NCBI GenBank assembly: GCA_031761875.1
Contig: CP134492.1
Span: forward strand, 3,162,001-3,226,000
Source: Bacillaceae bacterium IKA-2
GTDB lineage: Bacteria > Bacillota > Bacilli > Bacillales > Anaerobacillaceae
Direction: 5' to 3'
DNA length: 64,000 nt
Shown: positions 2,262 through 63,298 of the stretch, in pieces
How positions within the stretch are numbered: the first letter of the stretch is position 1
Layout of the letters: the number at the start of each line of letters is the position of its first letter
Notes under the pieces: model-generated
Databases searched by the model: none
What the model was told of the DNA's origin: nothing
What the model saw: only the letters and a program-made list of their open reading frames with translations
Made by a program: the position numbers and the translations under genes

Positions 2262-2307
2262 TATATTGGTTGGAATGTCGAATATAAACGATATTTCAAC
2301 CAATATA
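2262..2307. repeat. 19-bp inverted repeat
   Basis: Arms 2262-2280 and 2289-2307 pair over all 19 positions, two of them as G-U in RNA, around an 8-base AT-rich loop. No T-run follows, so it is a poor intrinsic terminator. It lies between the radical SAM gene and the EamA gene and could be a leader structure for the latter or the relic of a small mobile repeat. Confidence 0.5.
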
Positions 2308-2319
2308 TTCATATAACAA

Positions 2320-3306
2320 GTGTTTTCGCTTTTTAGTCGCTATATAGTGCAATTATTTACTAGGTTAATGGTTTTAATATATAAGCTAGGAGGTAATTCT
2401 ATCGATAAGAGGAGTGTTTTATTTATCATTGTTGGCGCATCTTTATGGGGAACAATCGGAATCTTCGTTCAGGGTTTGTATGAGTTTGGACTTACTCCAC
2501 TTCAGGTTGTTACTGTTCGCGTCTTTTTTGCTGCAATCATTATTTTAATCTTTTTATTAATCAAAAACCCCTCTTTATTAAAGATCAAGATAAAAGACTT
2601 TAAATATTTTATTGGCACTGGAATTCTGTCAATTGTGTTTTTTAATTGGTTCTTTTTTACTGCAATCCAAGAAACTTCGCTTTCTGTTGCAGCGATTTTA
2701 TTGTATACTGGGCCAGCTTTCGTAACGATTATTTCGAGGTTTACATTTAAGGAGTATCTTACACCGCAGAAATTACTAGCATTACTGTTTACATTAATTG
2801 GCTGTGTCCTTGTTATTGGTCTGTTTCCATTAGAACAAACGAGATTAAGTCTCTATGGGGTTGTTGTCGGCATTGGCTCTGGTTTTTGTTATGCACTATA
2901 TTCAATTTTCGGCAAATACGCACTAGCAAAATATCATTCTCAAACTGTAACAGCCTATACATTTATTTTTGCTAGTGTAGCTCTTTTGCCAATAAGTGGT
3001 CTTTGGAAAATCGATAATTTACTTACCACAACGCCTATTTGGGCTTATGGAATTAGTTTAGGATTATTCCCAACGGTTTTAGCTTACTTCCTATATACAA
3101 AAGGTTTAGAAAAAGTTGAAACGAGCAAAGCGTCAATAACAGCAACAATAGAGCCTGTTGTTGCTGCCTTAATTGGAATTTTCATCTTTGGTGACCTGTT
3201 AACAAGTTGGCAATTTATCGGAATTTTTATTGTTTTATCCGCTGTCATTTTTATGGCAGCACCATCAAAAGACAAAAAATATCTTTACCCAGTAAAAACA
3301 TTTTAA
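2320..3306 (+). CDS. EamA/DMT-family transporter
   Basis: Drug/metabolite transporter superfamily exporter with about ten membrane helices in two repeated EamA halves. Recognisable blocks are ASLWGTIGIFVQGL near the start and the second-repeat pattern TKGLEKVETSKASITATIEPVVAALIG. Substrate unknown. The GTG at 2320 opens the longest frame, but the best ribosome binding site (TAGGAGGT, 2387-2394) sits six bases before an ATC codon at 2401. Starting there gives about 301 residues, the normal family length, and removes an unusual 27-residue extension. Either translation begins at a non-standard ATC or a weaker upstream start (GTG 2320, ATG 2368) is used. The gene is convergent with the MATE pump. 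Confidence 0.85.
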   Translation: MFSLFSRYIVQLFTRLMVLIYKLGGNSIDKRSVLFIIVGASLWGTIGIFVQGLYEFGLTPLQVVTVRVFFAAIIILIFLLIKNPSLLKIKIKDFKYFIGTGILSIVFFNWFFFTAIQETSLSVAAILLYTGPAFVTIISRFTFKEYLTPQKLLALLFTLIGCVLVIGLFPLEQTRLSLYGVVVGIGSGFCYALYSIFGKYALAKYHSQTVTAYTFIFASVALLPISGLWKIDNLLTTTPIWAYGISLGLFPTVLAYFLYTKGLEKVETSKASITATIEPVVAALIGIFIFGDLLTSWQFIGIFIVLSAVIFMAAPSKDKKYLYPVKTF

Positions 3307-3321
3307 CAACAGACTTTTAAA

Positions 3322-3370
3322 TTTAGGGGCCAGTTCCCCACCTAAACGAGAAGTGAAGGTGAGCACTTCT
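3322..3370. terminator. hairpins between convergent genes
   Basis: Two stem-loops lie between the converging EamA and MATE genes: TTTAGGGG (3322-3329) with a complementary arm ending at 3346 and one bulged A, and AGAAGTG (3349-3355) with CACTTCT (3364-3370). Neither has a clear T-run, so the terminator reading rests mainly on position. Confidence 0.35.
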
Positions 3371-3414
3371 AATCAAATGGAGTCTCAACACGCACTAACA
3401 GTAACTCTTCTTGT

Positions 3415-4785
3415 TTAGGTGGCCTCTGAATCCTTGTCAATAAAAGACATTTTAGTCCATTTTTTTGATTTCCAGCGTTTTAGCATTAATAGACCTCTAA
3501 GCCATTCATCAGCAATAAAAGCAATCCATACCCCGACTAAGCCAAGTCCAAATATTACTCCGAGAATGTAAGCTAGGACAACGGCTACCCCCCACATCGA
3601 TAAAATCCCGACATAAACAGGATATTTAACATCACCGGCGGCTCTTAAAGAGTTAATAACAACAAGATTAAAGGCTCTACCAGGTTCTAGGATAATTGTT
3701 AATAATATAAGGATACTCCCAAGGGCAATAATGTCAGGGTTATCAGTGAAAATCCCAAAAAGATATTTACTGAAAATTGTAAAAATCACCGCTAGGACGA
3801 ACGAAACAATAATAGCTATTTTCAAACTTTTTATACATCGCTTGTAAGCCGCATCTAATTGCTCTGCACCAATATAATGGCCAATTAAAATTTGAGTACC
3901 TTGGCCAATTGCAATGGAAAAAAGTAGAATAAACATCATTAGACTTTGTGTGTACACCTTCGTCGTTAAAGCCAATGTTCCAAAAGAAGCAATAAAGTAA
4001 GTAATTGTTATTTGAGACGTGTTATAAGCTAAATGTTCTCCCGCGGACGGTATCCCAATTTTTAATAGCTTCTTTAGTTCATTTTTCGGAAACTTCTTAA
4101 AAAGAAAGGCAACCGATAAATTTCCTTGAAGGCGGTAGTAAAGGATAATAAACATTGCTATGAGCCCAAGTGAACGACTAGCAATAGTAGCAATTGCTAC
4201 CCCTGTTACACCTAAAATAGGAAAACCAAATGAGCCAAAAATAAATAAGTAATTACCAATAACGTTAATTAAATTCATTCCGATCGTCACAAACATTGCA
4301 TCTTTTGTATACCCATGACTGCGAATAACCGCTGCGATTGTCATTATCAGTGCTTGAATAAAAGCAAATCCACCGACAATTTGTAAATAAATAAGGGATG
4401 CATCAATTAACTCTGAGGGAATGTTCATTACCTTTAAAATAAATGGTGCTAGTACGAATAAAACTAAACTTAAAATAAATCCGAAAATAAAATTTGCAGC
4501 AATAGATACGACAGCAATTTGGTTCGCAGTTTGATCCTTTTTGGCACCAACATATTGAGCGATTAAAATGCTAGTACCTGTTGCGATAAAACCAAACATG
4601 ACAATAATAACATTTAAGATCTGGTTAGAAACCCCAACAGAAGCAACTGCATTGTCATCATATCGACTGAGCATTAATGTATCGGCACTCCCCATAAGCA
4701 TATGTAAAAAAATCTCAATAAAAATCGGCCAAGTTAACGCTAGTAATGTTATTTTCGTCGCTGTCTTTGTTTTTGATTTTTTCAT
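3415..4785 (-). CDS. MATE-family efflux transporter
   Basis: Multidrug and toxic compound extrusion pump of the inner membrane, cation-coupled antiport by family knowledge. The 456 residues contain about twelve hydrophobic segments in two MatE halves, with typical blocks WPIFIEIFLHMLMGSADTLM and VGVSNQILNVIIVMFGF near the N-terminus and GQGTQILIGHYIGA in the second half. The ATG is preceded by GAGGTGAG. An AraC-type regulator starts 282 bases away on the other strand, so the pump may be its target (inference from position). The drug or metabolite exported cannot be read from sequence. Confidence 0.9.
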   Translation of the reverse strand: MKKSKTKTATKITLLALTWPIFIEIFLHMLMGSADTLMLSRYDDNAVASVGVSNQILNVIIVMFGFIATGTSILIAQYVGAKKDQTANQIAVVSIAANFIFGFILSLVLFVLAPFILKVMNIPSELIDASLIYLQIVGGFAFIQALIMTIAAVIRSHGYTKDAMFVTIGMNLINVIGNYLFIFGSFGFPILGVTGVAIATIASRSLGLIAMFIILYYRLQGNLSVAFLFKKFPKNELKKLLKIGIPSAGEHLAYNTSQITITYFIASFGTLALTTKVYTQSLMMFILLFSIAIGQGTQILIGHYIGAEQLDAAYKRCIKSLKIAIIVSFVLAVIFTIFSKYLFGIFTDNPDIIALGSILILLTIILEPGRAFNLVVINSLRAAGDVKYPVYVGILSMWGVAVVLAYILGVIFGLGLVGVWIAFIADEWLRGLLMLKRWKSKKWTKMSFIDKDSEAT

Positions 4786-10331: not shown

Positions 10332-11383
10332 TATATAGTAAACTTTGATATTGTTGTTGGATGTGGTTGTGGTCTTGAAAAAAAGTACCCTTGCGCTAAC
10401 GGAATTCCTATATCTTTACAAAATTGCGCTTCTTCTTTTCTTTCGATTCCTTCAGCAAGAAGGAAAATTCCATTTTCCTCAGCTATGTTAACCCATTCCG
10501 TCAACTTATCCTGTTTTTCGTTATCAAAATCACAATGGGAAATTATAGCTCGATCGATTTTTGCAAAGTTTGGTTTTAGTGCCTTTAATAATTCAGTAGT
10601 CGCATAACCTGACCCTAAATCATCTAACGCTACTTTTATGCCATTCTTTTTATAGACATCAAAGATTTTTTTTAAGTGGTCTATATTTTCAATTTTTTCA
10701 GTTTCTACTACTTCGAAAATTAAATCCCTAGGATCAACTTTATAACGTTCTGCAGCTATAAAAGTAGTTTTTAAACAGTGATCCGGATCATAAATTGATG
10801 AAGGTAAGAAGTTTATAAATCGTTTCACACCTTTTGCTAATAATTCAGCACTTTTTTCGATAGATAAAATCCTCGCTTGACTATCAAGTAAAGATTGCAA
10901 ACCTGCTTTTTGCGAGAATTGAAATAATTCCTCAGGGTTAAAGGGGATTTCTTTAGGACGAAGTAAAAACTCATATCCATAAAGGCTTAAATTTTCAAGT
11001 GACACAATCGGCTGAATAAAACTAGTATATAATTTTTCGTTTATTATTTTTAGATAATTAAGATTGTTCACACGCTCAATAAATTCAGCAAGCGTAGTCG
11101 AAATAAATTGGTTTTCAAGTTCGCTTTCGATTTTATTTTCACATCTACAAAAAATTACTTGTTTCGCTTCAACAGACAACATCTCATCCATCTCATTAAC
11201 TAATTGCTGCAATTCTTTTAATGAAGTGTAAGAAAACTTTATTTTATAATCACTCTTGAAAACGTTCTTAAATTTTTGACAATTTTCTATTATAGCTAAA
11301 ATTAGCTGTGGCGTTGTCGATTCCACAATGAGGTTTCCTTCCTCAGGGAATTCAGCTAATTTTGAACATTTAGGACAACTCAT
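10331..11383 (-). CDS. EAL-domain cyclic-di-GMP phosphodiesterase
   Basis: Probable c-di-GMP phosphodiesterase, 350 residues, cytoplasmic. The N-terminal ~115 residues begin with MSCPKC and contain FCRC near residue 104, suggesting a small metal-binding or redox-sensing region. The C-terminal ~240 residues are an EAL domain. Key positions look intact: YGYEFLLRP (EFL for EAL), FINFLPSSIY, LIFEVVETE, KVALDDLGSGYA, FAKIDRAII, LLAEGIE and AQGYFFSRP, so activity is likely. The start follows AAAGGAG. It is transcribed alone; upstream 11384-11635 is AT-rich with no gene. A PilZ receptor for the same nucleotide is encoded at 48.8 kb. Confidence 0.88.
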   Translation of the reverse strand: MSCPKCSKLAEFPEEGNLIVESTTPQLILAIIENCQKFKNVFKSDYKIKFSYTSLKELQQLVNEMDEMLSVEAKQVIFCRCENKIESELENQFISTTLAEFIERVNNLNYLKIINEKLYTSFIQPIVSLENLSLYGYEFLLRPKEIPFNPEELFQFSQKAGLQSLLDSQARILSIEKSAELLAKGVKRFINFLPSSIYDPDHCLKTTFIAAERYKVDPRDLIFEVVETEKIENIDHLKKIFDVYKKNGIKVALDDLGSGYATTELLKALKPNFAKIDRAIISHCDFDNEKQDKLTEWVNIAEENGIFLLAEGIERKEEAQFCKDIGIPLAQGYFFSRPQPHPTTISKFTI

Positions 11384-11635
11384 CTATTAATCTCCTTTCT
11401 CTGTTCATAAATATAGTACACACCCAAAAATATTTTAGATGTCATAAGATACAATATAAGATTTCCACCCCCACCTAAATAATAGATATCATAATTATTA
11501 GAGTCTGCTCAAAAAGTTAATCGCAGTAATAGCATTTAAAAAAATTCTTGTTTAAGGTTAACTAACTATATATACATATACTAATATCTTTAAATATATT
11601 TAACAACATTAATATAAGAGATCCTTCAAAAAAGT

Positions 11636-11666
11636 AAAAAGGTAATTCAAAATGAATCACCTTTTT
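11636..11666 (-). terminator. intrinsic terminator of the propionate operon
   Basis: Arms AAAAAGGT (11636-11643) and ACCTTTTT (11659-11666) continue inward through ATTCA/TGAAT after one mismatch, with a 3-base loop. It overlaps the last codons and stop of meaB, and on the minus strand ends in a T-run. Confidence 0.8.
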
Positions 11667-12682
11667 ACTGAGTTATCATACTCCTCCAACAACTTTTGCG
11701 CTGCTAATGTTACTGTCAAAGTTCCAGCTTCTATTGCCCTTTTGTATTCAGGCAAGTTTTCTTTAATTTTAGCATGTTCATAAAAGCGATTTAAAAGCTG
11801 TGATTGGACTGTTTCATTGAGCCATAAAAACTGTTGGTCTTTACGTCTTTCTTCAAAAATAGTTGCTTGTTTCGTATAATCAAAGTAATTTTCGACTACT
11901 TCCCAGATTGCATCAATACCATCACCATTTAAAGCAGAACAAGTATAAGCCTTAGTTTCCCAACCTCTCGTTGCCTTTGGTAAATAGTGGAGGATTTGAT
12001 TATATTCTTCTTTTGTTACAAGCGCTCTCATTTTGTTTTCACCGTCTGCCTTATTGATTAAAATCGCATCGGCCTGTTCCAAAACGCCTTTTTTCATTCC
12101 TTGTAGCTCATCACCAGCACCTGTTAGCATTAAGACTAAGAAAAAATCTACCATAGAACGAACTGTTGTCTCGCTTTGTCCGACTCCAACTGTTTCAACG
12201 ATAATAACATCATAACCCGCTGCCTCACAGAGGAGTATTGTTTCACGACTTTTTCTTGCTACCCCACCTAACGTTCCGCCAGTTGGTGTTGGCCGGACAA
12301 AAGCTCGCATGTTCCTACCAAGCTCTTCCATTCGTGTTTTATCACCAAGAATACTTCCCCTAGAAATTTGACTACTCGGATCAACCGCGAGGACTGCTAC
12401 CTTATGTCCCTTGTCACATAGGTATGTTCCTAAAGCCTCAATTAACGTACTTTTTCCAGCCCCTGGTACACCTGTAATCCCAATCCGAACAGACTTTCCA
12501 GTATGAGGAAGGATTCCACCAATTACTTTTTGTCCTAATTGAAGATGCTTTTCTGCATTACTTTCCACAAGGGTAATGGCCTGAGCTAAAATAGCCCGAT
12601 TACTTTCTAAAACACCAGCTACAAAATCTTCAACTGTTAACTTCCTTTTTTTTCGAGGAGTTTCTTTTTTGTCTTTATCCAT
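11657..12682 (-). CDS. meaB: methylmalonyl-CoA mutase-associated GTPase MeaB
   Basis: G3E-family GTPase chaperone (MeaB/ArgK) that guards cobalamin loading and protects methylmalonyl-CoA mutase. The P-loop GVPGAGKST lies near residue 70, followed by DPSSQISRGSILGDKTRM, the switch-like VETVGVGQSE and the guanine-specificity motif NKADG. The 341-residue length is normal. Its ATG follows GAGGAGAG. It is the last gene of the mmdA-mutA-mutB-meaB set, separated from mutB by a 289-base gap occupied by repeat copy B, which may partly uncouple its expression. The terminator at 11636-11666 follows at once. Confidence 0.93.
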   Translation of the reverse strand: MDKDKKETPRKKRKLTVEDFVAGVLESNRAILAQAITLVESNAEKHLQLGQKVIGGILPHTGKSVRIGITGVPGAGKSTLIEALGTYLCDKGHKVAVLAVDPSSQISRGSILGDKTRMEELGRNMRAFVRPTPTGGTLGGVARKSRETILLCEAAGYDVIIVETVGVGQSETTVRSMVDFFLVLMLTGAGDELQGMKKGVLEQADAILINKADGENKMRALVTKEEYNQILHYLPKATRGWETKAYTCSALNGDGIDAIWEVVENYFDYTKQATIFEERRKDQQFLWLNETVQSQLLNRFYEHAKIKENLPEYKRAIEAGTLTVTLAAQKLLEEYDNSVKR

Positions 12683-21804: not shown

Positions 21805-22584
21805 TTATTTTTTATTTGAATTGATTTGTATTTTAATGAAGTTTGGAACCGACTTAGTTGTGTAAGGCAATTCCTTAATCATTTCATCACCTTTCATAGT
21901 TACAATCGCATCAAGCATATTTAACAAAATTTTTCTTTGCAAATCTCTTCGCCCTACCGCTCCAAAGCTTTGACCTAGCGGCAGCTTAATGTGAAGCGCT
22001 CTCGGTGGCATAACCTTTTTTGTTAAATCAGGTAAGTGTGTTAAAGAAACTGTTGCTATGCCTGCATTTTCAACTGCTTTTTGAATCAATCCCACGGATT
22101 GATGGCAAATATATCAGCCAGGTGACGCAAGTAGAACATCTACTTTTTCCTTTTTTAACTGCTCAATGATAATAGGAATAGCTTCTCTTTGTAATATTTC
22201 GATTCGAGGAATATAACCCATCATTCCGTAATGAGTTTCAGCAACCTCACCAATGGTCTCAGTCTCTCTTAACTCATGAATCATTTGTAGTGGAAAAACA
22301 CAATTAATATCTTTATCAGCGGCGGTCGTATCATAGTGTGTATGAGTAACAATAAGATTTTCATTTAATGAATCTTTTGGAATGAAATGAACGGTATGAT
22401 CACCCGCCTCAACGTCAAAAGGTTTTTGACCTTTCAAATGAACACCGGCAGTTGTTAATAGTGCTATCTTCCATTCACTCATTGACTTAGTAAGTATGAT
22501 TTTATCAGCCTGATCCTGTTGCTTTTTCATCATCAATTTTGCCTTTAGAGCATAGTACTTATGCTTTAAACCTTGATCGGACAT
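21805..22584 (-). CDS. predicted selenoprotein, GrdB/D-proline reductase selenoprotein B family (in-frame TGA = Sec)
   Basis: One gene of 259 residues interrupted by an in-frame TGA at 22116-22114. Before it: THTHYDTTAADKDINCVFP and VAETHYGMMGYIPRIE. After it: ICHQSVGLIQKAVENAGI and MPPRALHIKLPLGQSFG. These blocks together match the short glycine/betaine/sarcosine/D-proline reductase selenoprotein B family, whose redox site at this place is UxxC or CxxC; here it reads SPG-U-YICHQ. A perfect hairpin with a G-starting loop follows the TGA at the spacing expected of a bacterial SECIS (22085-22103). A GAGGTGAG site supports the ATG at 22584, which overlaps the upstream flippase gene by 19 bases. 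Probably a cytoplasmic thiol/selenol oxidoreductase; substrate unknown. Confidence 0.82.
22085..22116 (-). promoter_or_regulatory. UGA codon plus SECIS-like hairpin
   Basis: The TGA occupies 22116-22114. Ten bases later ATCAATCC (22103-22096) pairs perfectly with GGATTGAT (22092-22085) around the loop GTG. The apical loop begins 18 bases after the TGA and its first base is G, in line with the bacterial SECIS consensus. Confidence 0.75.
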
Positions 22585-23522
22585 TTACTCACCTCTTTTT
22601 TCTCTACTATCCAATATACTACACCAAAAGAAGTCCCGATTAACACGAGGATAAAAAATAAAAGTGACACTGCTACTGAAACTGTTTCGTGAACACCTAC
22701 TAATGCAAACAGATAGACATAAGCGCCTTCGCGAACTCCAATTCCGCCAATCGAAATAGGTAACATCGTTAAAAGTGATATTACTGAAACAAAACCTAAT
22801 TGCGCTAGAAATGAAACGTTAACGTCAAAAGCGCGAAACAGCATGTCTGTTACGAGAACAAATGAAAGTTGAAACAACAAAGAAAATAAGAGTACTTTAA
22901 CTAAAAGACCTCTCTCATTTTTATATGTAGAAATCGTCTCATAAAATGAGTCAAGACGACTACCAAAAATTCCAGTTAATTTTTTTTGAAAGAACGTTAC
23001 AAATAAAAAACAATAAATCAATCCGATTAAAATGAGAAAAAAAACTAGTTGAAAGAAAATATGACCACTATCGTTAACGTATAACAGTCCAATAAAAGCT
23101 GTCAGTAAAAGTGCAATCCCTGCAAATAATCTTTCGACGGTAACAGAAGCAACTGCTTTACTAATACTCACTTTTTTGCCTGCATAATAGATTCTAAAAC
23201 CGTCACCGCCAATACTCCCAGGTAAAAAACTATTAAAAAAGAATCCGATATAATACCACCGAAAGCAATCATAAAAGCTTACTTTCCGTTCTACTTTTAA
23301 TAATAAATACCATTTGTAGCCGCTAATAAAAATACATAGTAAAACAAATAAGAAGGCCATTAGTAGAAAAACTAGATTAACTGTTTTCAACTGTGTATTG
23401 AAACCTAGCCAATCAATCGTAAACACCAAAAAGAAACAAGCGACGATGGAAACTAACGCTCGAAAGATTAATTGAATTTTACCGCTCATCATTTTTTTTG
23501 TTTTACTTATTGTTGCTTCCAT
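22566..23522 (-). CDS. lysylphosphatidylglycerol synthase TM-region / flippase-like membrane protein
   Basis: Integral membrane protein of 318 residues with about eight hydrophobic segments, of the YbhN/UPF0104 family (membrane half of MprF-type flippases). Typical blocks: LPGSIGGDGFRIYYAGKK near residue 100, SVTVERLFAGIALLL, and LPISIGGIGVREGAYVYLF near residue 255. It lacks the aminoacyl-transferase half of MprF, so it may move or handle a lipid rather than modify it. It overlaps both neighbours by about 20 bases (TVP38-like upstream, selenoprotein downstream), showing translational coupling in one mRNA. Confidence 0.85.
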   Translation of the reverse strand: MEATISKTKKMMSGKIQLIFRALVSIVACFFLVFTIDWLGFNTQLKTVNLVFLLMAFLFVLLCIFISGYKWYLLLKVERKVSFYDCFRWYYIGFFFNSFLPGSIGGDGFRIYYAGKKVSISKAVASVTVERLFAGIALLLTAFIGLLYVNDSGHIFFQLVFFLILIGLIYCFLFVTFFQKKLTGIFGSRLDSFYETISTYKNERGLLVKVLLFSLLFQLSFVLVTDMLFRAFDVNVSFLAQLGFVSVISLLTMLPISIGGIGVREGAYVYLFALVGVHETVSVAVSLLFFILVLIGTSFGVVYWIVEKKEVSKCPIKV

Positions 23523-24252
23523 TAGTAGCCAACCTTTTTTCTTTTAATTTTTTATCGATACGCGGCTTCAACGCGAGCCCTAAAATCCCAAAACAAATAA
23601 CAATTAAAAATGCCCAAAAAACAATCATGACAGATTGACTTGCATTTTCTCCTAAATATGAATAAAGAATTGTAGCTGGTAATTGCCCTATCCCAGTCGC
23701 AACAAAATAGGTAAAGAAATTAACAGGAGTCAATCCAGCAGCATAGCTTACGATCGCAAAGGAATTGATCGGAAATAACCTTGCAAAAAGAACTGAATGC
23801 ATACCATAACGATCAAAAAATTGATTCATCCAATCCAAAGCTCTATTACTAACAAATTTTTCTACTGCGGGCCTACCGAGTCCTCTTGATATGTAAAAAC
23901 ATATCGCTGCGCCAACCATTGCACTACTCCAAGAAAGTACAGTACCCCATACTGCTCCAAATAACAGTCCATTCGTGAAGGTAACGACAAATGCTGGAAG
24001 TGGAGCAACAATTAACGTTAAAATCATTGCAAAAAAAGAAATAACCGGTGCCCACATTCCATATGATAGTAAATAATCCCTAAAACCTTCAATATCTCCT
24101 TCCATCAACTTTCCCGAAACTAAATGTAACCCTTCTTGAAATGGTGTTACAAGAAAATATAAGAGTGCCAATAAAATGACGAAACTAACAAGAACTCCTA
24201 CTTGTAATTTTTGATTTATTTTGCGTTGATTATCCATCAGTTTTTCAATCAT
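23503..24252 (-). CDS. TVP38/TMEM64-family membrane protein (DedA superfamily)
   Basis: Membrane protein of 249 residues with about six hydrophobic segments. The SNARE-associated/VTT domain is recognised by FVVTFTNGLLFGAVWGTVLSW, GAAICFYISRGLGR and LFPINSFAIVSYAAGLTPVNF. Relatives are implicated in lipid scrambling, and one is often found near selenium or mercury genes, but its function here is not established. The ATG at 24252 has only a weak AGG upstream; an ATG at 24237 is an alternative. First gene of the overlapping TVP38-flippase-selenoprotein unit. It follows the rhodanese lipoprotein by 67 bases, so it may share that promoter. Confidence 0.85.
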   Translation of the reverse strand: MIEKLMDNQRKINQKLQVGVLVSFVILLALLYFLVTPFQEGLHLVSGKLMEGDIEGFRDYLLSYGMWAPVISFFAMILTLIVAPLPAFVVTFTNGLLFGAVWGTVLSWSSAMVGAAICFYISRGLGRPAVEKFVSNRALDWMNQFFDRYGMHSVLFARLFPINSFAIVSYAAGLTPVNFFTYFVATGIGQLPATILYSYLGENASQSVMIVFWAFLIVICFGILGLALKPRIDKKLKEKRLATNGSNNK

Positions 24253-24319: not shown

Positions 24320-24754
24320 TTATTTATCTGCTAATAACTCTTCATATGGCCAATCAGCTTGACCATTTTCAAGTATGAATACTCTTTCCGCAGATATACC
24401 TTGCTCCAAGTAGTAATCAACTGTTCTTGTTGCTCCACCTCCACCAGCTGGACAAACGATTACAATTGGATCTTCAGATGTATTTAACTTATCTACTAAT
24501 AGTGCGAGCTTCGCGTAATCTTCTTCTCCACTAGCAGGGTAAGCATAGGTTGCAATTGCTCCAACAATATGATGAGCATCAAACTCATCTTCTACTTGTA
24601 TGTCTACTAAGGTGATTGATTCGTTGTTTTCAATTTTGCTTTTAACTTCTTCGGCCGAAATAATGTTATAATCTCCGTCATCACCTGATGTACAGGCCCC
24701 TAAAACTAAGCTTGTAACTATAACTGCTACTGCGATTAAAAATAACTTCTTCAT
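24320..24754 (-). CDS. single-domain rhodanese lipoprotein
   Basis: Exported lipoprotein, 144 residues from the ATG at 24754 (GGGGGAAAG upstream). A signal peptide ends in LVLGAC, and one rhodanese domain follows (NIISAEEVKSKIENNESITLVDI). The active-site loop is VCPAGGGGATRT, so the sulfur-accepting Cys is present but the loop is Gly-rich and unusual. It probably handles sulfane sulfur or oxyanion reduction products outside the membrane. It has its own sigma-A promoter and may be the first gene of the unit leading to the selenoprotein. Confidence 0.82.
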   Translation of the reverse strand: MKKLFLIAVAVIVTSLVLGACTSGDDGDYNIISAEEVKSKIENNESITLVDIQVEDEFDAHHIVGAIATYAYPASGEEDYAKLALLVDKLNTSEDPIVIVCPAGGGGATRTVDYYLEQGISAERVFILENGQADWPYEELLADK

Positions 24755-24805
24755 TTTTCTTTCCCCCATCTTCTTTTAAAAAAAATTTTAATACCTATGT
24801 GGGTA

Positions 24806-25229: not shown

Positions 25230-25649
25230 TTATTTCCCAGTTTCTTTAAATAGCTTAATCCGCGCTCCAATTTCATCACGGACACGTTGGAAAAATACCC
25301 ATTTTTCTGCTTCAGTACCTTCTGCCTTTGCAGGATCATCAAAGCCCCAGTGGACACGATCTTTATTTTTCGGTGTTGCTGGACAAACATCATCTGCATG
25401 CCCACATAATGTGACGACCAAATCAGCTTTCGCTAAAATTTCAGGATCGATTTTATCAGAAGTTTGATTAGTAATATTAATCCCGGTTTCGTTCATTGCT
25501 TTTACTGCACTAGGATTTACACCATGGGCCTCGATGCCCGCTGAATAGACATCCCACTGATCTCCTAAATAATGATGACCAAATCCTTCAGCCATTTGGC
25601 TACGGCAAGAATTACCTGTACATAAGAAGTAAATTAATTTTTTTGACAT
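25230..25649 (-). CDS. arsC: arsenate reductase, thioredoxin-linked
   Basis: Cytoplasmic As(V) to As(III) reductase of the low-molecular-weight phosphatase fold, 139 residues. The catalytic loop CTGNSCR gives Cys10 and Cys15; [10 protein letters not shown] gives Cys82 and Cys89, the same numbering as B. subtilis ArsC. Recycling is therefore through thioredoxin. AAGGAG precedes the ATG. It is the third gene of arsR-acr3-arsC, separated from acr3 by a 153-base gap filled by repeat copy C, which is unusual as these genes normally abut. Confidence 0.95.
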
Positions 25650-25680
25650 TTGTGTAAAATCTCCTTTTAATAAGTTTAGT

Positions 25681-25804
25681 GTAGAAAGTTTAAATGGAAA
25701 ACATAAAAATCACTAGATAGATCTACTGCCTAAATTTTTTTGAACTCCCTAACCAACTGCTCAAAAGCTGCTTACTTATCTTTCCACCCCCCCTTTCCAA
25801 CTTT
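25681..25804. repeat. intergenic CCAACTTT-family repeat, copy C
   Basis: One CCAACTTT unit (25797-25804) abuts the acr3 stop codon. Upstream are GATCTACTGCCTAAA and TTGAACTCCCTAACCAACTG, words shared with copies A and D. It separates acr3 from arsC. Confidence 0.5.
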
Positions 25805-26870
25805 ACTTAGCTACTATTGGTTCTGGAAACCAGTGTCGGGTTTTATTTGAAATACGTACGAGCGCTAACATAATCGGAACCTCAACGAGAACTCCTACTA
25901 CCGTAACAAGTGCCGCCCCTGAAGTAAGTCCAAATAAGGCAATCGCCACTGCAACAGCAAGCTCAAAGAAGTTACTAGCGCCAATCATTCCAGCTGGAGA
26001 TGCGATTTCATGCGGCAGCTTCCAAGCTTTGGCCCAGCCATATGCAATGATAAAAATAAAAAAAGTTTGGATCGTCAATGGGATAGCTATTAAGAGAATA
26101 TGAAGCGGGTTATTCAAAATAACTTCACCTTGGAATGAAAATAGAATTATTAATGTCAATAACAAGCCAATGATCGGGATATGATCAAACTTCTTTAAAA
26201 ATACATTTGTAAAATAATCTAAACCCTTAGTACTTATCACATAAGTTCTTGATAAATAACCACCTGCAAGTGGGATAACGATAAATAACCCAACTGATAA
26301 AATTAATGTTTCATAAGGAACTATGACGTTACTAATTCCTAAAAGTAGCATCACGATTGGAGCAAAAGCAACTAATAAAATTAAATTATTGACCGAAACT
26401 TGAACAAGAGTATAGGCCGGATTCCCCTTTGTTAAATGGCTCCATACAAATACCATCGCTGTACATGGTGCAGCCCCTAAAAGAACCGCTCCAGCAATAT
26501 AACTTGTCGCAAGATCATCTGGAATAAACGGTGCAAAAATCACCTTGAAAAATAACCACGCAAAGAAAAACATCGTAAAAGGTTTAATTAACCAGTTTGT
26601 TACGGAGGTAACAATCAAACCTTTTGGCATTTTAAATGCTCCGACAATACTAGTGAAATCAATTTTCAGCATCATTGGATAAATCATCATCCAAATCAAA
26701 ATAGCGACTGGAATTGATACTTGGGCATATTCAAACTTGCTTAACGTCTCAGGAACAATAGGTAGCAATTGGCCTAATCCCACACCTACTATGATACAAG
26801 CAGCGACCCAGACTGTTAAATACCGTTCAAAAAAACTAATCCCTGCTACAGTTGATTTCTCTTTACTCAA
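25803..26870 (-). CDS. acr3: ACR3-type arsenite efflux transporter
   Basis: Inner-membrane As(III) exporter of the ACR3/BART superfamily with ten predicted helices, about 355 residues. The family Cys is in LLGAAPCTAMVFVWSHLTKG, and GASNFFELAVAVAIALFGL lies near the C-terminus. The frame is open to 26930, but that would overlap arsR. The TTG at 26870 follows AAGGGGAGA at good spacing and restores the usual length and N-terminus (SKEKSTVAGISFFERYL). It follows arsR by 28 bases. With arsA present across the divergent promoter, the pump might also be energised by ArsA, which is known mostly for ArsB (inference). Confidence 0.93.
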   Translation of the reverse strand: MSKEKSTVAGISFFERYLTVWVAACIIVGVGLGQLLPIVPETLSKFEYAQVSIPVAILIWMMIYPMMLKIDFTSIVGAFKMPKGLIVTSVTNWLIKPFTMFFFAWLFFKVIFAPFIPDDLATSYIAGAVLLGAAPCTAMVFVWSHLTKGNPAYTLVQVSVNNLILLVAFAPIVMLLLGISNVIVPYETLILSVGLFIVIPLAGGYLSRTYVISTKGLDYFTNVFLKKFDHIPIIGLLLTLIILFSFQGEVILNNPLHILLIAIPLTIQTFFIFIIAYGWAKAWKLPHEIASPAGMIGASNFFELAVAVAIALFGLTSGAALVTVVGVLVEVPIMLALVRISNKTRHWFPEPIVAK

Positions 26871-26898
26871 TACTCTCACTCTCCCCTTACATTTTTCT

Positions 26899-27237
26899 CT
26901 AGTCACAACTAATTTTTTTTCCAATCTCAATCAAGTGAATTATTTTATCGTCTTGATTTGGAAGATGATTTAAAATTGCATCAATTGTCGGAAAAAAAGC
27001 ATTTTCACGATTTAATGAATAAAAAATCCATTGGCCCTTCCTCGTTTCTGTTACTAAGTTCGCATCTTTCAATTTACGGATGTGTTGACTAATTGACGGC
27101 TGACTCATTTGGAAAATTTCAACGAATTCACAAACGCAGCAATCACTTCTTTTTAATAGGAGCAACATCGTTAACCGAGTTTTATCTCCAAGTAATTTTA
27201 AGACTGTTGCCATCTTCTCTATTGGAATGTTCTCCAT
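26899..27237 (-). CDS. arsR: arsenic-responsive ArsR/SmtB repressor
   Basis: Winged-helix dimeric repressor of 112 residues that leaves DNA on binding As(III). The recognition region is MSQPSISQHIRKLKDANLV; the metalloid site is the CVC motif within DCCVCEFVEIF (around residues 33-36), with an extra adjacent Cys. The ATG follows AAAGGAG. Its own promoter overlaps a perfect inverted repeat (27303-27322), the likely operator, which can also affect the divergent arsD-arsA. Confidence 0.93.
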   Translation of the reverse strand: MENIPIEKMATVLKLLGDKTRLTMLLLLKRSDCCVCEFVEIFQMSQPSISQHIRKLKDANLVTETRKGQWIFYSLNRENAFFPTIDAILNHLPNQDDKIIHLIEIGKKISCD

Positions 27238-27299
27238 TTTCTCAAACTCCTTTATAAGTATTGGACTTATTGAACATCCGCATATACAATATACTTATC

Positions 27300-27327
27300 A
27301 TTATATAAGTATATGCTTATATGTCAA
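27300..27327 (-). promoter_or_regulatory. sigma-A promoter of arsR-acr3-arsC
   Basis: On the minus strand TTGACA (27327-27322) and TATAAT (27305-27300) are 16 bases apart. The ArsR operator covers the spacer, so binding would block polymerase. Confidence 0.8.
27303..27322. promoter_or_regulatory. ArsR operator
   Basis: Inverted repeat ATATAAG-6-CTTATAT, typical of ArsR/SmtB sites, sits between the -35 and -10 boxes of the arsR promoter and 127 bases before arsD. Confidence 0.75.
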
Positions 27328-27448
27328 TGTAAAATATGTTAAGCTATTGTAAAGGTGATAGTAATTTATTTTCATGGTAATAATTAAGTCTAGATGCCTT
27401 GAAATTATTGTATACCTTTAGAAAACTTTATTAAAGGAGCGAATAAAA

Positions 27449-27808
27449 ATGAAAATTGAGATTTTCGACCCTGCTTTGTGCTGTTCAACAGGAGTTTGCG
27501 GACCTGAAGTAGATCCTGATTTATCAAGGATAGCCCGTGACGTAGCTACACTTAAAAATAAGGGTCATGACGTGGTTAGATATAATTTAGCTCAAAACGC
27601 CGAACCGTATGTATTAAATAAGGGAATTAATAAGTTAATGGAAGATGATGGCATAGATGCCTTACCAGCAACTGCCGTCAACGGAAAAATTTTAAAAACC
27701 GCTAGCTACCCAACAAAGAAGGAATTAGCTGAGTGGCTTAAGATTGACATTAGCGAATTGGATTTTAAAAAACCGTCGCTAACGATTGACTTGAATCAAT
27801 CAAAGTAA
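27449..27808 (+). CDS. arsD: ArsD arsenite metallochaperone
   Basis: Cytoplasmic chaperone that passes As(III) to the ArsA ATPase, 119 residues, thioredoxin-like fold. The metalloid-binding cysteines are in ALCCSTGVCG: Cys11, Cys12 and Cys17, equivalent to the essential Cys12, Cys13 and Cys18 of the E. coli plasmid protein. The distal Cys pairs of some ArsD proteins are absent. The ATG follows AAAGGAG. It starts the divergent arsDA unit; arsA follows after a 222-base gap containing repeat copy D. Confidence 0.93.
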   Translation: MKIEIFDPALCCSTGVCGPEVDPDLSRIARDVATLKNKGHDVVRYNLAQNAEPYVLNKGINKLMEDDGIDALPATAVNGKILKTASYPTKKELAEWLKIDISELDFKKPSLTIDLNQSK

Positions 27809-27841
27809 AATGATCAAAAGTTACGTCAAAAAATAGTACAT

Positions 27842-27967
27842 CAATCATTTGAGGAAGTTGGTATGTATGAAGGGGAATGGAAGGTAGGATAAAACCAAAA
27901 GATAGTTCTACGGCCTAAAATCCTTTGAACTTATTTGAACTTTTTCCAACTTTCCAACTTTCCAACT
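27842..27967. repeat. intergenic CCAACTTT-family repeat, copy D
   Basis: The right end has CCAACTTT twice plus CCAACT (27946-27967). The left part carries the inverted GAAGTTGG (about 27853). The middle GATAGTTCTACGGCCTAAAA resembles copy C. It lies between arsD and arsA. Confidence 0.5.
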
Positions 27968-28030
27968 ACCTCCCATAAGATGTCTATTATTTTTTTGAAT
28001 ATCCCTAAAAAGAGAAAGGTTGTTTTCTTA

Positions 28031-29794
28031 ATGGAACTATTTCATCCTACAAAATTAACAGAAACAAGACATCTATTTTTTACTGGTAAAGGAGGGGTTG
28101 GTAAAACCTCAGCGGCATGCGCAACAGCTGTTGCATTAGCTGAGGTTGGCAAAAAAGTATTAATTGTTAGCACAGACCCAGCCTCTAATCTTGAAGATGT
28201 TTTTGGTGAAAAGCTTTCTAACGAACCTAGGCAAATAAAAGGTGTTACAAATTTATTTGCCTCAAATTTAGACCCTGAACAAGCTGCAAAGGATTACCGT
28301 GAAAAAGTAATCGGTCCTTATCGCGGAAAACTACCTAAGGTTGCTATTGATAACATGGAAGAGCAATTATCTGGTGCATGTACCGTTGAAATTGCCGCAT
28401 TTGATGAATTTACAAATCTACTTTCGAATCGCAGTTTAACTGACAAATTTGATCATATTATTTTTGACACGGCACCAACAGGACATACATTAAGACTATT
28501 GCAATTACCAACAGCCTGGTCTTCTTTTTTAGAAGACAACACGAATGGAGCCTCTTGCTTAGGTCCATTATCTGGCCTTGCCGACAAACGTGAGTTATAT
28601 GCTAATACAGTTAAGGCTCTTGCCAACAGCTCCGAAACAACGCTTATTCTCGTCTCAAGACCTGAATACTCAGCTTTAAATGAAGCAGAACGCGCATCTC
28701 TTGAGTTACGTGAGTTAGGTATTAAAAACCAAACTTTAATTATTAACGGCGTCTTTCATGCCGAAGGCGACGATGACTTTGTTGCGAATCGATTGGTCGC
28801 AAGACAAGCAAAGGCTTTAAATGAAATGTCTGACTATCTAAAGAAACTTCAATTATTTGAACTTCCGCTTGTTCCATTTAATTTAACCGGTTTGGTGTCC
28901 TTAAAAAACTTTTTCGAACCTGTTAATATGACTGATGCGGTAAAAACTGAAGCCGTGACAGCACCCAAAATCCCACCACTTTATACGATGGTTGATCATT
29001 TCGCGCAAAAAAACAGTGGTGTGATTATGACAATGGGTAAAGGTGGAGTAGGCAAAACAACAATTGCAGCAGCAATTGCCGTGGGTCTTGCAGAACGTGG
29101 TCATAAAGTTCATTTAACAACAACCGATCCAGCTGCCCATTTAGGCCTTGTCTTAAAAGATACGGATCTAGTAGCAAATCTTTCTGTCAGTCGAATTGAC
29201 CCCAAACAAGTTGTTGAAAATTATCGCAATGAAGTTTTAAGTAAAGTCAGTGCTACATTAGATGAGGAGAGCCTAGAGTTTATTAAAGAAGATTTACGCT
29301 CACCTTGCACAGAAGAAATTGCTGTTTTCCAAGCCTTTGCCAAAATTGTCGATCAGGCAAAAGATTCATTTGTTGTCATTGATACAGCACCAACCGGTCA
29401 CACGTTACTTCTCTTAGATGCAGCAGAATCTTATCACAAAGAAGTAACTCGTTCTAGTGGTGATATGCCTGAAGCTGTTACAAAGCTTTTACCAAGACTG
29501 CGCGACCCAGAAATTACCAACGTTTTGTTAGTAACACTTCCTGAAGCAACACCGGTACTCGAAGCAAGCCGCCTACAAGACGACTTAAAAAGGGCCGGAA
29601 TTAAACCCGAGTGGTGGGTTATTAATCAAAGTTTTCAAGCTACAAATACAAAGGATCCCATCCTTCAGGGCAGAGCACAAGCTGAAGAACAGTGGATTAG
29701 CAAAGTGGATAAGGAACTATCCAACCATTGCGTAATCTTACCATGGCAAGCCGACGATACAATTGGTATTGATAGTTTAAAAAAACTTCTATAA
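28031..29794 (+). CDS. arsA: ArsA arsenite-stimulated ATPase
   Basis: Soluble ATPase that energises arsenite export, 587 residues in two homologous halves. Each half has the deviant Walker A GKGGVGKT (residues 19-26, and again near residue 335) and a DTAPTGHTL motif. The three As(III)-binding cysteines known from plasmid ArsA have counterparts in SGACTVEIAAF, NGASCLGPLSG and SPCTEEIAVF. The frame is open from 27935, but that part is repeat copy D. The ATG at 28031 restores the normal N-terminus, although its GAAAGG site is about 11 bases away. Confidence 0.93.
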   Translation: MELFHPTKLTETRHLFFTGKGGVGKTSAACATAVALAEVGKKVLIVSTDPASNLEDVFGEKLSNEPRQIKGVTNLFASNLDPEQAAKDYREKVIGPYRGKLPKVAIDNMEEQLSGACTVEIAAFDEFTNLLSNRSLTDKFDHIIFDTAPTGHTLRLLQLPTAWSSFLEDNTNGASCLGPLSGLADKRELYANTVKALANSSETTLILVSRPEYSALNEAERASLELRELGIKNQTLIINGVFHAEGDDDFVANRLVARQAKALNEMSDYLKKLQLFELPLVPFNLTGLVSLKNFFEPVNMTDAVKTEAVTAPKIPPLYTMVDHFAQKNSGVIMTMGKGGVGKTTIAAAIAVGLAERGHKVHLTTTDPAAHLGLVLKDTDLVANLSVSRIDPKQVVENYRNEVLSKVSATLDEESLEFIKEDLRSPCTEEIAVFQAFAKIVDQAKDSFVVIDTAPTGHTLLLLDAAESYHKEVTRSSGDMPEAVTKLLPRLRDPEITNVLLVTLPEATPVLEASRLQDDLKRAGIKPEWWVINQSFQATNTKDPILQGRAQAEEQWISKVDKELSNHCVILPWQADDTIGIDSLKKLL

Positions 29795-62221: not shown

Positions 62222-63298
62222 TCAGCCAGCCGCTGCGGCTTCGCCGGAAAGGTTAAAATTTAAGTTTGCCACTGGCAACTTTCCTAATGAACCCACTGGA
62301 ATACTTCCAGTTCCTGTTACTGCTGTGTCAGATGTCCAAACGCGCATACCCGAGTGCATGGCTACTGCGTTATAACCTAATTGGTTTAAAACACGATTTG
62401 CAACACTCGCATCCGTTGCATTATAACCAATAATGATAATTTGTTTATCTAATGGAAGCTTTGCTAAGTTTTCTTTGTTAGCTAGAGTTTCCACTGGAAT
62501 ATTAAGTGCAGTTTGTACATGACCGTTTTGATAATGATTCTCTTGTCGAATATCAAGTAAAAAGACATCATCTGCTTCCTCTTGCACTTTTTCCATTACT
62601 GTCGGTGCCGGAATAACTGCGCTTTTACCAGACGATAAGTATTCTTTAGATTGAGCCAAAATTAACTCACTAAAATTTGCTACTGTTTCTGTTTCAAGTG
62701 TTGGAAGTTCGTAACTACCCGTTTCTTGAACTGGGTTATTTACGACTTCAAAGTCAAATGGTTGTTTAATAAATGGTGCTCCTAAACCGTCAGCTGTACT
62801 CCAGCCACCCATACCATATTCCATCGTTACTGCGTCATACCCTAACATGCTCCATAAAGCCACTGTTTGCGCTGCAGTATGACCCGAGAAACATACAACG
62901 ATTAACTTCTTATCTTTTGGTAAATCTTGAAGATAATTAGCATCTGCTGTATTTGCATATGGAATATTTACAGAACCTTCAATATTTCCAATTGCGAATG
63001 CCTCTACATCTCTTACATCGACAATTAAAAATTCTTCCTCTGAACCAAATATGAACTTGTTATACACGTCATTTGGCAGAACAGACTCAATTGTGACATT
63101 TTTCAAGTATTCCTCCGATGCTTGTTGTAAAAGTTCAAAATGATCTCCTTCAAATTGTTCAACTTCAACCTCGACTCTTTCTTTTCCAGGTCCGATGTTG
63201 TCTATATTTGTATTCGCACTTTCTGAACAGGCTCCGAGAAATAACACCATCAAAACACTGCTTGACAACGATAGTAATTTTTTGTGAAACAATTTCAT
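62222..63298 (-). CDS. two-domain rhodanese lipoprotein (SrrE-like)
   Basis: Exported lipoprotein, 358 residues, signal peptide ending MVLFLGACS. First rhodanese domain (~75-170) has catalytic Cys in LIVVCFSGHTAAQT; the second (~235-335) has IIIIGYNATDASVANRVL, so its Cys is replaced by Gly and it is likely non-catalytic. It sits immediately upstream of the Mo subunit, the place of SrrE. GAGAGGTG precedes the ATG. The 113-base gap to the Mo gene has a 7-bp inverted repeat (TACGTAC/GTACGTA, 62195-62213). Confidence 0.87.
   Translation of the reverse strand: MKLFHKKLLSLSSSVLMVLFLGACSESANTNIDNIGPGKERVEVEVEQFEGDHFELLQQASEEYLKNVTIESVLPNDVYNKFIFGSEEEFLIVDVRDVEAFAIGNIEGSVNIPYANTADANYLQDLPKDKKLIVVCFSGHTAAQTVALWSMLGYDAVTMEYGMGGWSTADGLGAPFIKQPFDFEVVNNPVQETGSYELPTLETETVANFSELILAQSKEYLSSGKSAVIPAPTVMEKVQEEADDVFLLDIRQENHYQNGHVQTALNIPVETLANKENLAKLPLDKQIIIIGYNATDASVANRVLNQLGYNAVAMHSGMRVWTSDTAVTGTGSIPVGSLGKLPVANLNFNLSGEAAAAG

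Follow-up and report, generated by a model that had tools for sequence, protein, structure and literature searches.

A PrdB-like selenoprotein gene of Bacillales, split by an in-frame TGA, keeps company with homologues of the Escherichia coli ydjXYZ-ynjABCDEF genes

PrdA is the pyruvoyl partner subunit of D-proline reductase. The available text of PMC13188914 describes that enzyme as carrying out a reductive ring cleavage with a selenocysteine (Sec) subunit, PrdB, and a title cited with it names PrdA. "Proline reductase PrdB" is likewise a UxxC selenoprotein family in the Sargasso Sea and GOS surveys, which in their accessible portions count 42 and 235 sequences, respectively (PMC1088965, PMC2398784). 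In the available text of PMC3688515, FNR activates the E. coli operon ydjXYZ-ynjABCD under anoxic conditions, and the operon is said to encode predicted proteins and a predicted transporter. A title cited in PMC3836016 links a DedA protein to selenite resistance. A search of open-licence papers, as far as their accessible text goes, gave none linking a PrdB-like selenoprotein to ydj/ynj or TVP38 genes. The locus described here represents a PrdB-related subfamily whose occurrence follows that of homologues of E. coli ydjXYZ-ynjABCDEF, an association that is new here.

The window, meaning the whole stretch of DNA that was analysed, comprises 64,000 nucleotides of Bacillaceae bacterium IKA-2 (contig CP134492.1, 3,162,001 to 3,226,000). 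On its minus strand an ATG, preceded by what by eye is a good ribosome-binding site (GAGGTG), opens a frame of 156 codons that continues through a TGA into 102 more codons and a TAA. This TGA is the sole stop between two in-phase open reading frames, in the position and phase given by the original prediction, which had also foreseen that a standard gene caller would return two truncated proteins; the ORF list indeed gives 22584-22114 (156 aa) and 22095-21805 (96 aa). Read through as Sec, the product would have 259 residues, with Sec157 in the motif SPGUYICHQSVG, and the G-U-Y-I-C-H surroundings claimed for it are present. The features to which the text refers are these:

21805..22584, minus strand: PrdB-like selenoprotein gene, predicted 259 aa with Sec157 (PGUYICHQSVG), from ORFs, profile matches, TGA-bearing relatives and a structure model with pLDDT 90.4
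22114..22116, minus strand: in-frame TGA, almost certainly read as selenocysteine, aligned with TGC (3 genes, L068-L070) or TGT (1 gene, L110) in homologues; Sec machinery in the genome
22085..22103, minus strand: SECIS-like hairpin, 8 bp, loop GTG, 10 nt after the TGA, from pairing and conservation across relatives
22566..23522, minus strand: flippase-like membrane protein (PF03706/TIGR00374), a profile match, overlapping the selenoprotein start by 19 nt
23503..24252, minus strand: TVP38/DedA-type membrane protein (VTT domain), 88.7 bits against a cut-off of 33.9
24320..24769, minus strand: rhodanese-domain protein with a lipoprotein-like signal LGAC (by eye), 40.4 bits against a cut-off of 22.2

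The AlphaFold model of the selenoprotein is an alpha/beta protein with Sec157 in the link from a strand (150-154) to a helix (160-173). A fold search of the PDB with this model returned nothing at E <= 0.001, so the mechanism proposed below is not drawn from structure; the PDB sequence search gave a single match, at E 0.11. Elsewhere in the window there are five other in-frame TGA codons with a Sec-like motif, all on the plus strand, four of them opposite long listed ORFs and the fifth at 63141.

Sequence comparison makes it nearly certain that the TGA is decoded as selenocysteine. Both outcomes that the original prediction had named as fatal to this idea, namely a genome lacking selB or selC and homologues with an unrelated residue or a gap at the TGA, were sought and neither was found. 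The source genome (4.42 Mb in one contig, 99.99% complete) carries selA (558.9 bits), selB (336.9 bits, cut-off 242.25), a tRNA-Sec gene (58.7 bits, gathering 47; tRNA-SeC with anticodon tca by ARAGORN), and two selD genes, both of which themselves contain an in-frame TGA, at a GUxCK site. About 110 nt downstream of the tRNA-Sec gene (L034 2098-2193), on the other strand, lies a phage-type integrase-like gene (by eye, 2306-3508), as if selC were an integration site. Across 397 genomes of the order, the profile of A1 matched 53. The window's subfamily is present in 17 of them, 32 have TGA members of other subfamilies only (the TGA position was read in 14 of these, the stop count only in 18), 3 have Cys members, and 1 has a broken member (G252). 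The subfamily thus amounts to 18 genes in 17 genomes, with TGA in all 18; genes with extra stops were kept (one TAA in the window gene, beyond its start, two TAA in G025, two TGA each in G366 and G123). Use of either Sec or Cys at the site, as had been stated for the family, holds among the 44 members read (41 TGA, 3 Cys), and in an alignment of 33 members that takes in the window gene, the Cys three residues on is invariant, as is the Sec column when Cys is counted as standing in for Sec. The Cys homologues all have the PrdB-type motif, and none was seen inside the subfamily.

The distribution of SelB is in keeping with this pattern. It occurs in 179 of the 397 genomes, but in 48 of 49 with a TGA member of the family, in none of the three Cys genomes and not in G252 (p 1e-17, uncorrected for kinship); the one TGA genome in which it was not found, G203, is a draft in 480 contigs. 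The broken member of G252 (G252:C20:50861-51491), in a genome with no SelB match, is likely a relic after loss of Sec decoding. Homologous protein extends on both sides of the TGA, and the part after it is under purifying selection, with dN/dS of 0.03-0.16 in six pairs: about 0.03 for L052/L053, 0.16 for L058/L060, and, in four pairs for which dS exceeds 1.4, 0.10 for L061/L062, 0.11 for window against L051, 0.15 for window against L050 and 0.12 for L050/L051.

Ten nucleotides past the TGA there begins, as originally described, a perfect 8-bp stem (ATCAATCC/GGATTGAT) with the loop GTG (GUG in RNA), a SECIS-like hairpin of the kind sought in bacterial selenoproteins. Among 1000 synonymous recodings of the same peptide, 0.8% had a stem this long and 1.9% reached an energy this low, under a null that applies the codon usage of eight window ORFs to all 21 genes compared, those of other species too. 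By dinucleotide shuffling of a 63-nt stretch, the window gene alone is not striking (z -1.02; 28 of 200 shuffles fold as well). Of 21 relatives compared (18 subfamily genes and 3 more distant ones), 20 have the hairpin in the corresponding position and only L046 lacks it, with per-gene p values under recoding of 0.000-0.059 for energy and 0.000-0.25 for stem length (0.94 in L046). In the hairpin alignment 92.9% of 168 cells pair, and three of the eight stem pairs show changes on both sides, a result matched by 3 of 500 shuffles that ignore relatedness; moving the partners by -1 gave 9 cells changed on both sides against 5, but only 60% paired against 93%. The closing pair fails in 8 genes, leaving a 7-bp stem and a 5-nt loop, and the G and T of the loop (GU) are invariant across the aligned genes. 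Between pairs of the 18 genes, synonymous codons are identical in 67% of cases over codons +4 to +11; the figure is 40% ahead of the TGA and 38% beyond +12. Single codons elsewhere are also constant in all 18 order-level genes, namely the Gly codon ahead of the TGA (22119-22117) and that of the Glu at +15.

On sequence grounds the protein is PrdB-related but is neither the PrdB of D-proline reductase nor a full GrdB. The original prediction had seen in it all blocks of the GrdB/PrdB family. This went too far: PrdB (TIGR04483) is the best NCBIfam match and is covered almost end to end (3.3e-50, profile 23-233 of 238), but the score of 170.8 bits lies below the cut-off of 300, and PF07355 (GrdB) is matched only in its C-terminal part (205-341 of 347; 37.1 bits, gathering 22). 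In a tree of 44 rows the 18 subfamily genes form one group with support of 94/92, which is below the starred level; a set of 17 of them reaches 99/96, and four known PrdB rows form a separate clade (100/99) in which the order's three Cys genes nest; L067, L071, L046 and L048 are long branches. PrdA adjoins three of the four PrdB rows (L049 by profile, L106 and L107 by annotation; L108 is unannotated). A search for proteins of the PrdA/GrdE type (PF09338) found none in the source genome or in 15 others of the 17 subfamily genomes, the exception being G128 with three; the positive control, plasmid record W01, gave three matches, one of them just before its prdB. Since the PrdA-type pyruvoyl subunit is missing, the reaction must differ from that of D-proline reductase. 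What the original prediction missed is thus that the protein is, by the tests made here, no subunit of D-proline or glycine reductase, and which genes are its partners in the genome. The prdB of a Ligilactobacillus salivarius plasmid (L106 2920-3642) also has an in-frame TGA at the Sec site, and so seems to need Sec decoding too.

The window gene closes a run of rhodanese, TVP38/YdjZ-like, flippase-like and selenoprotein genes, in which the coding sequences overlap at the last two junctions. Of the E. coli proteins used as queries, YdjZ is the best match to the TVP38/DedA-type protein (phmmer 6e-53); the flippase-like protein presumably answers to the label UPF0104, and a homologue of it stands beside the relative's gene in G004, G319 and G154. 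A promoter scan, with 12 sites against 14.4 expected, gave no evidence. The YdjZ-like and rhodanese genes, which share the run with the flippase-like gene, are the only ydj/ynj-type genes beside the window gene; the ABC genes lie 0.46 Mb away, near a paralogue of 60% identity (G000:C1:3642122). There, in the same direction, are found MerA-like, ynjF, ydjX, ynjD, ynjC, ynjC, ynjB and ydjZ homologues, with one insertion-sequence-like gene (by eye) in between; the distance to the paralogue is about 4 to 9 kb for ynjF and the ABC genes. The same neighbourhood (L032 2837-6417 and ~11278-11860; G000:C1 ~3632836-3641860) holds other TGA-split selenoprotein genes, for SelD (GUACK) and for Trx-like (WURC), AhpD-like (CHYU) and DsbA-like (UPFC) proteins. 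The source genome has, further, a third PrdB-like selenoprotein with the motif GUPLCHRT (L035 7449-8500), which follows a peroxiredoxin gene with a TPVU active site, a pair kept in three genomes of the genus examined and in G128 and G313 (loci including L037, L038, L096 and L097).

Similar company is kept in other genomes. Homologues of ynjB, ynjC, ynjD and ynjF lie beside the selenoprotein gene in G004 (where the YnjB-type protein scores 453 bits against a cut-off of 203), G128, G319 and G154, with ydjY as well in the last two, and G154 has the whole on one strand in the order ydjY-ydjZ-flippase-PrdB-like-ynjB-C-C-D-F. Rhodanese (ynjE) and ydjX homologues are close by in G023 and G067, and MerA-like and TVP38 (ydjZ-like) genes in G296. 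Altogether 8 of the 17 subfamily genomes have ydj/ynj homologues in a stretch of about 20 kb, being all 7 outside family f26 (the Salipaludibacillus/Alkalicoccus type) and 1 of the 10 within it, and the adjacency spans six genera of five families; in the other nine f26 genomes YnjB occurs only elsewhere. Comparison loci of other subfamilies (L035, L037, L038, L095-L099) have such neighbours in 1 of 8 cases (L095, a rhodanese), matches to the general ABC ATPase ynjD alone being left out of both counts. In G319 the genes for the flippase-like protein and the selenoprotein are directly preceded by a selA homologue (L085 7125-8531), the second gene upstream of the selenoprotein.

Co-occurrence over the order points the same way, in tests that ignore the tree. 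YnjB (NF008633) is present in 125 of 397 genomes. All 17 genomes that carry the subfamily have it, compared with 52 of the 162 SelB-positive genomes in which the subfamily is absent (p 2e-8, with no correction for kinship); counted by genus, the figures are 8 of 8 and 41 of 135 (p 4e-5). Among genomes that lack SelB, 56 of 218 have YnjB. Where the subfamily is absent, SelB is no predictor of YnjB (p 0.21), and genomes with only other TGA subfamilies have YnjB in 16 of 31 cases (p 0.08). In five of the 17 (G000, by its second copy, G004, G128, G319 and G154) ynjB lies within 10 kb of a subfamily gene, for which a rough binomial with p 0.005 gives 2e-8. In 108 of the 125 genomes YnjB occurs without the selenoprotein, which the pathway can thus do without in some organisms, E. 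coli among them.

Relatives are carried by ten named contigs, with TGA in all ten, at least six of which are probably the same records as counted order genomes and about four additional (L041, L046-L048). The additional ones include a Desulfobacterales MAG, in which TVP38, MerA-like and (by eye) radical-SAM genes follow further along, a Dehalococcoidia MAG, and an Atopococcus MAG whose gene has rhodanese and radical-SAM genes next to it. In a survey of 398 genomes over the phylum, a family member occurred in 89, often with the length of GrdB. Of 30 loci from this survey, 26 yielded a readable motif, three had none and the string at L138 is no motif; among these loci the window motif recurred only as the source genome's own copy. 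The near form PGUPLCHQSVG (L121) has only a weak rhodanese match nearby.

The reading put forward, to which about even odds are given as a whole, is that of a Sec-decoded, PrdB-related UxxC oxidoreductase acting in a pathway of the ydjXYZ-ynjABCDEF type; its best role is the selenol reductase step, for which we infer a chemistry, an electron path and a class of substrate. Decoding of TGA as Sec would yield one 259-residue, presumably cytosolic, UxxC oxidoreductase, working here without a pyruvoyl (PrdA/GrdE) partner. An ABC importer (YnjB, two YnjC, YnjD) would bring the substrate in, and the selenol of Sec157 might attack it, or its thiol or selenol adduct, leaving Sec157 as a selenenyl-sulfide with Cys160. 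Re-reduction could come from the MerA-like flavin disulfide reductase or the YdjY ferredoxin, and rhodaneses may take up the released sulfane sulfur or selenium, although E. coli YnjE is annotated as a molybdopterin synthase sulfurtransferase and the rhodanese may therefore serve another end. YdjX/YdjZ, the flippase-like protein and the CDP-alcohol phosphatidyltransferase would make up a membrane part. More tentatively, and on balance doubtfully, the distinct, PrdA-free selenoenzyme may supply the reduction in a widespread, poorly understood ydjXYZ-ynjABCDEF pathway for the uptake and degradation, partly at the membrane, of a compound that bears sulfur or selenium; in E. coli the same job would fall to other redox parts, YdjY and YnjA.

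Several other accounts of the gene deserve to be weighed against this one. That it is a pseudogene, or encodes two proteins parted by a true stop, is scarcely credible: the ORF list does show two ORFs, and a GTG start is available at 22095, but no ribosome-binding site is seen ahead of it (by eye), the TGA stands at the same codon in every subfamily gene read, selection persists downstream and the genome's Sec machinery is complete. Very improbable, too, is a subunit of D-proline (or glycine/betaine) reductase in the classical sense, for which the best NCBIfam match and a Sec-bearing UxxC as in PrdB would speak; it was rejected on the sub-cut-off score, on the lack of PF09338 proteins in 16 of 17 subfamily genomes under a search whose control matched, and on the separate clade of known PrdB genes. 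An ars cluster, arsR-ACR3-arsC with divergent arsD-arsA (names by eye), adjoins the window run at 25230-29794, and ArsR and ArsC homologues lie within about 4 kb in L089, L090 and L094, which might suggest a part in arsenic detoxification. This is improbable nonetheless: 460 nt separate arsC from the rhodanese gene, the three loci represent one syntenic place (pcp-arsR-arsC-...-PCD-gene) that shows no ars match in L086, L087 and L088, and the stretches of G004, G128, G319 and G154 have none either. On comparison of neighbourhoods the arsenic link is weak.

The account that competes most seriously sees a general UxxC thiol oxidoreductase, whose ydj/ynj company reflects a shared habitat and neighbourhood drift, and it is plausible without being probable. 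The f26 genomes, nine in ten of which lack such neighbours, would fit it, as would the other redox selenoproteins around the paralogue. Against it stand YnjB in every subfamily genome compared with about half of those having only other TGA subfamilies, adjacency across so many genera and families, and the one-strand order in G154. The selenol reductase role remains the main reading. The selenoprotein is an added subfamily of a known family, in which an ordinary ORF list splits the gene in two, and a selenoenzyme tied to the ydj/ynj set suggests a reductive step of thiol or selenol type there, giving a handle on the function of the selenoprotein and of a poorly understood E. coli cluster alike. 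Protein labelled with 75Se, together with simple mutants, offers a route to the substrate of the pathway.

Set beside the described systems, the window protein is homologous to PrdB (TIGR04483) over nearly its whole length and has Sec at the aligned position, but its motif is PGUYICHQSVG where PrdB has TAGUGTCHRS, and it differs in the absence of PrdA from its genome, in its clade and in its gene neighbours. With GrdB (PF07355) it shares a superfamily by the Pfam cut-off, but it is shorter, its match is confined to the C-terminal portion of that profile, and it has no GrdE-type partner. The selenoproteins of the Sargasso Sea and GOS surveys resemble it as a UxxC family of PrdB type, although subfamilies and gene context are not given in the available text of those papers (PMC1088965, PMC2398784). 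Finally, E. coli ydjXYZ-ynjABCDEF offers the same TVP38/DedA, ABC, rhodanese and CDP-alcohol phosphatidyltransferase homologues that lie beside the subfamily genes; the K-12 stretch has no PrdB-like gene among its annotated genes, and to this set the Bacillales loci add the selenoprotein, often a flippase-like protein and sometimes a MerA-like flavoprotein.
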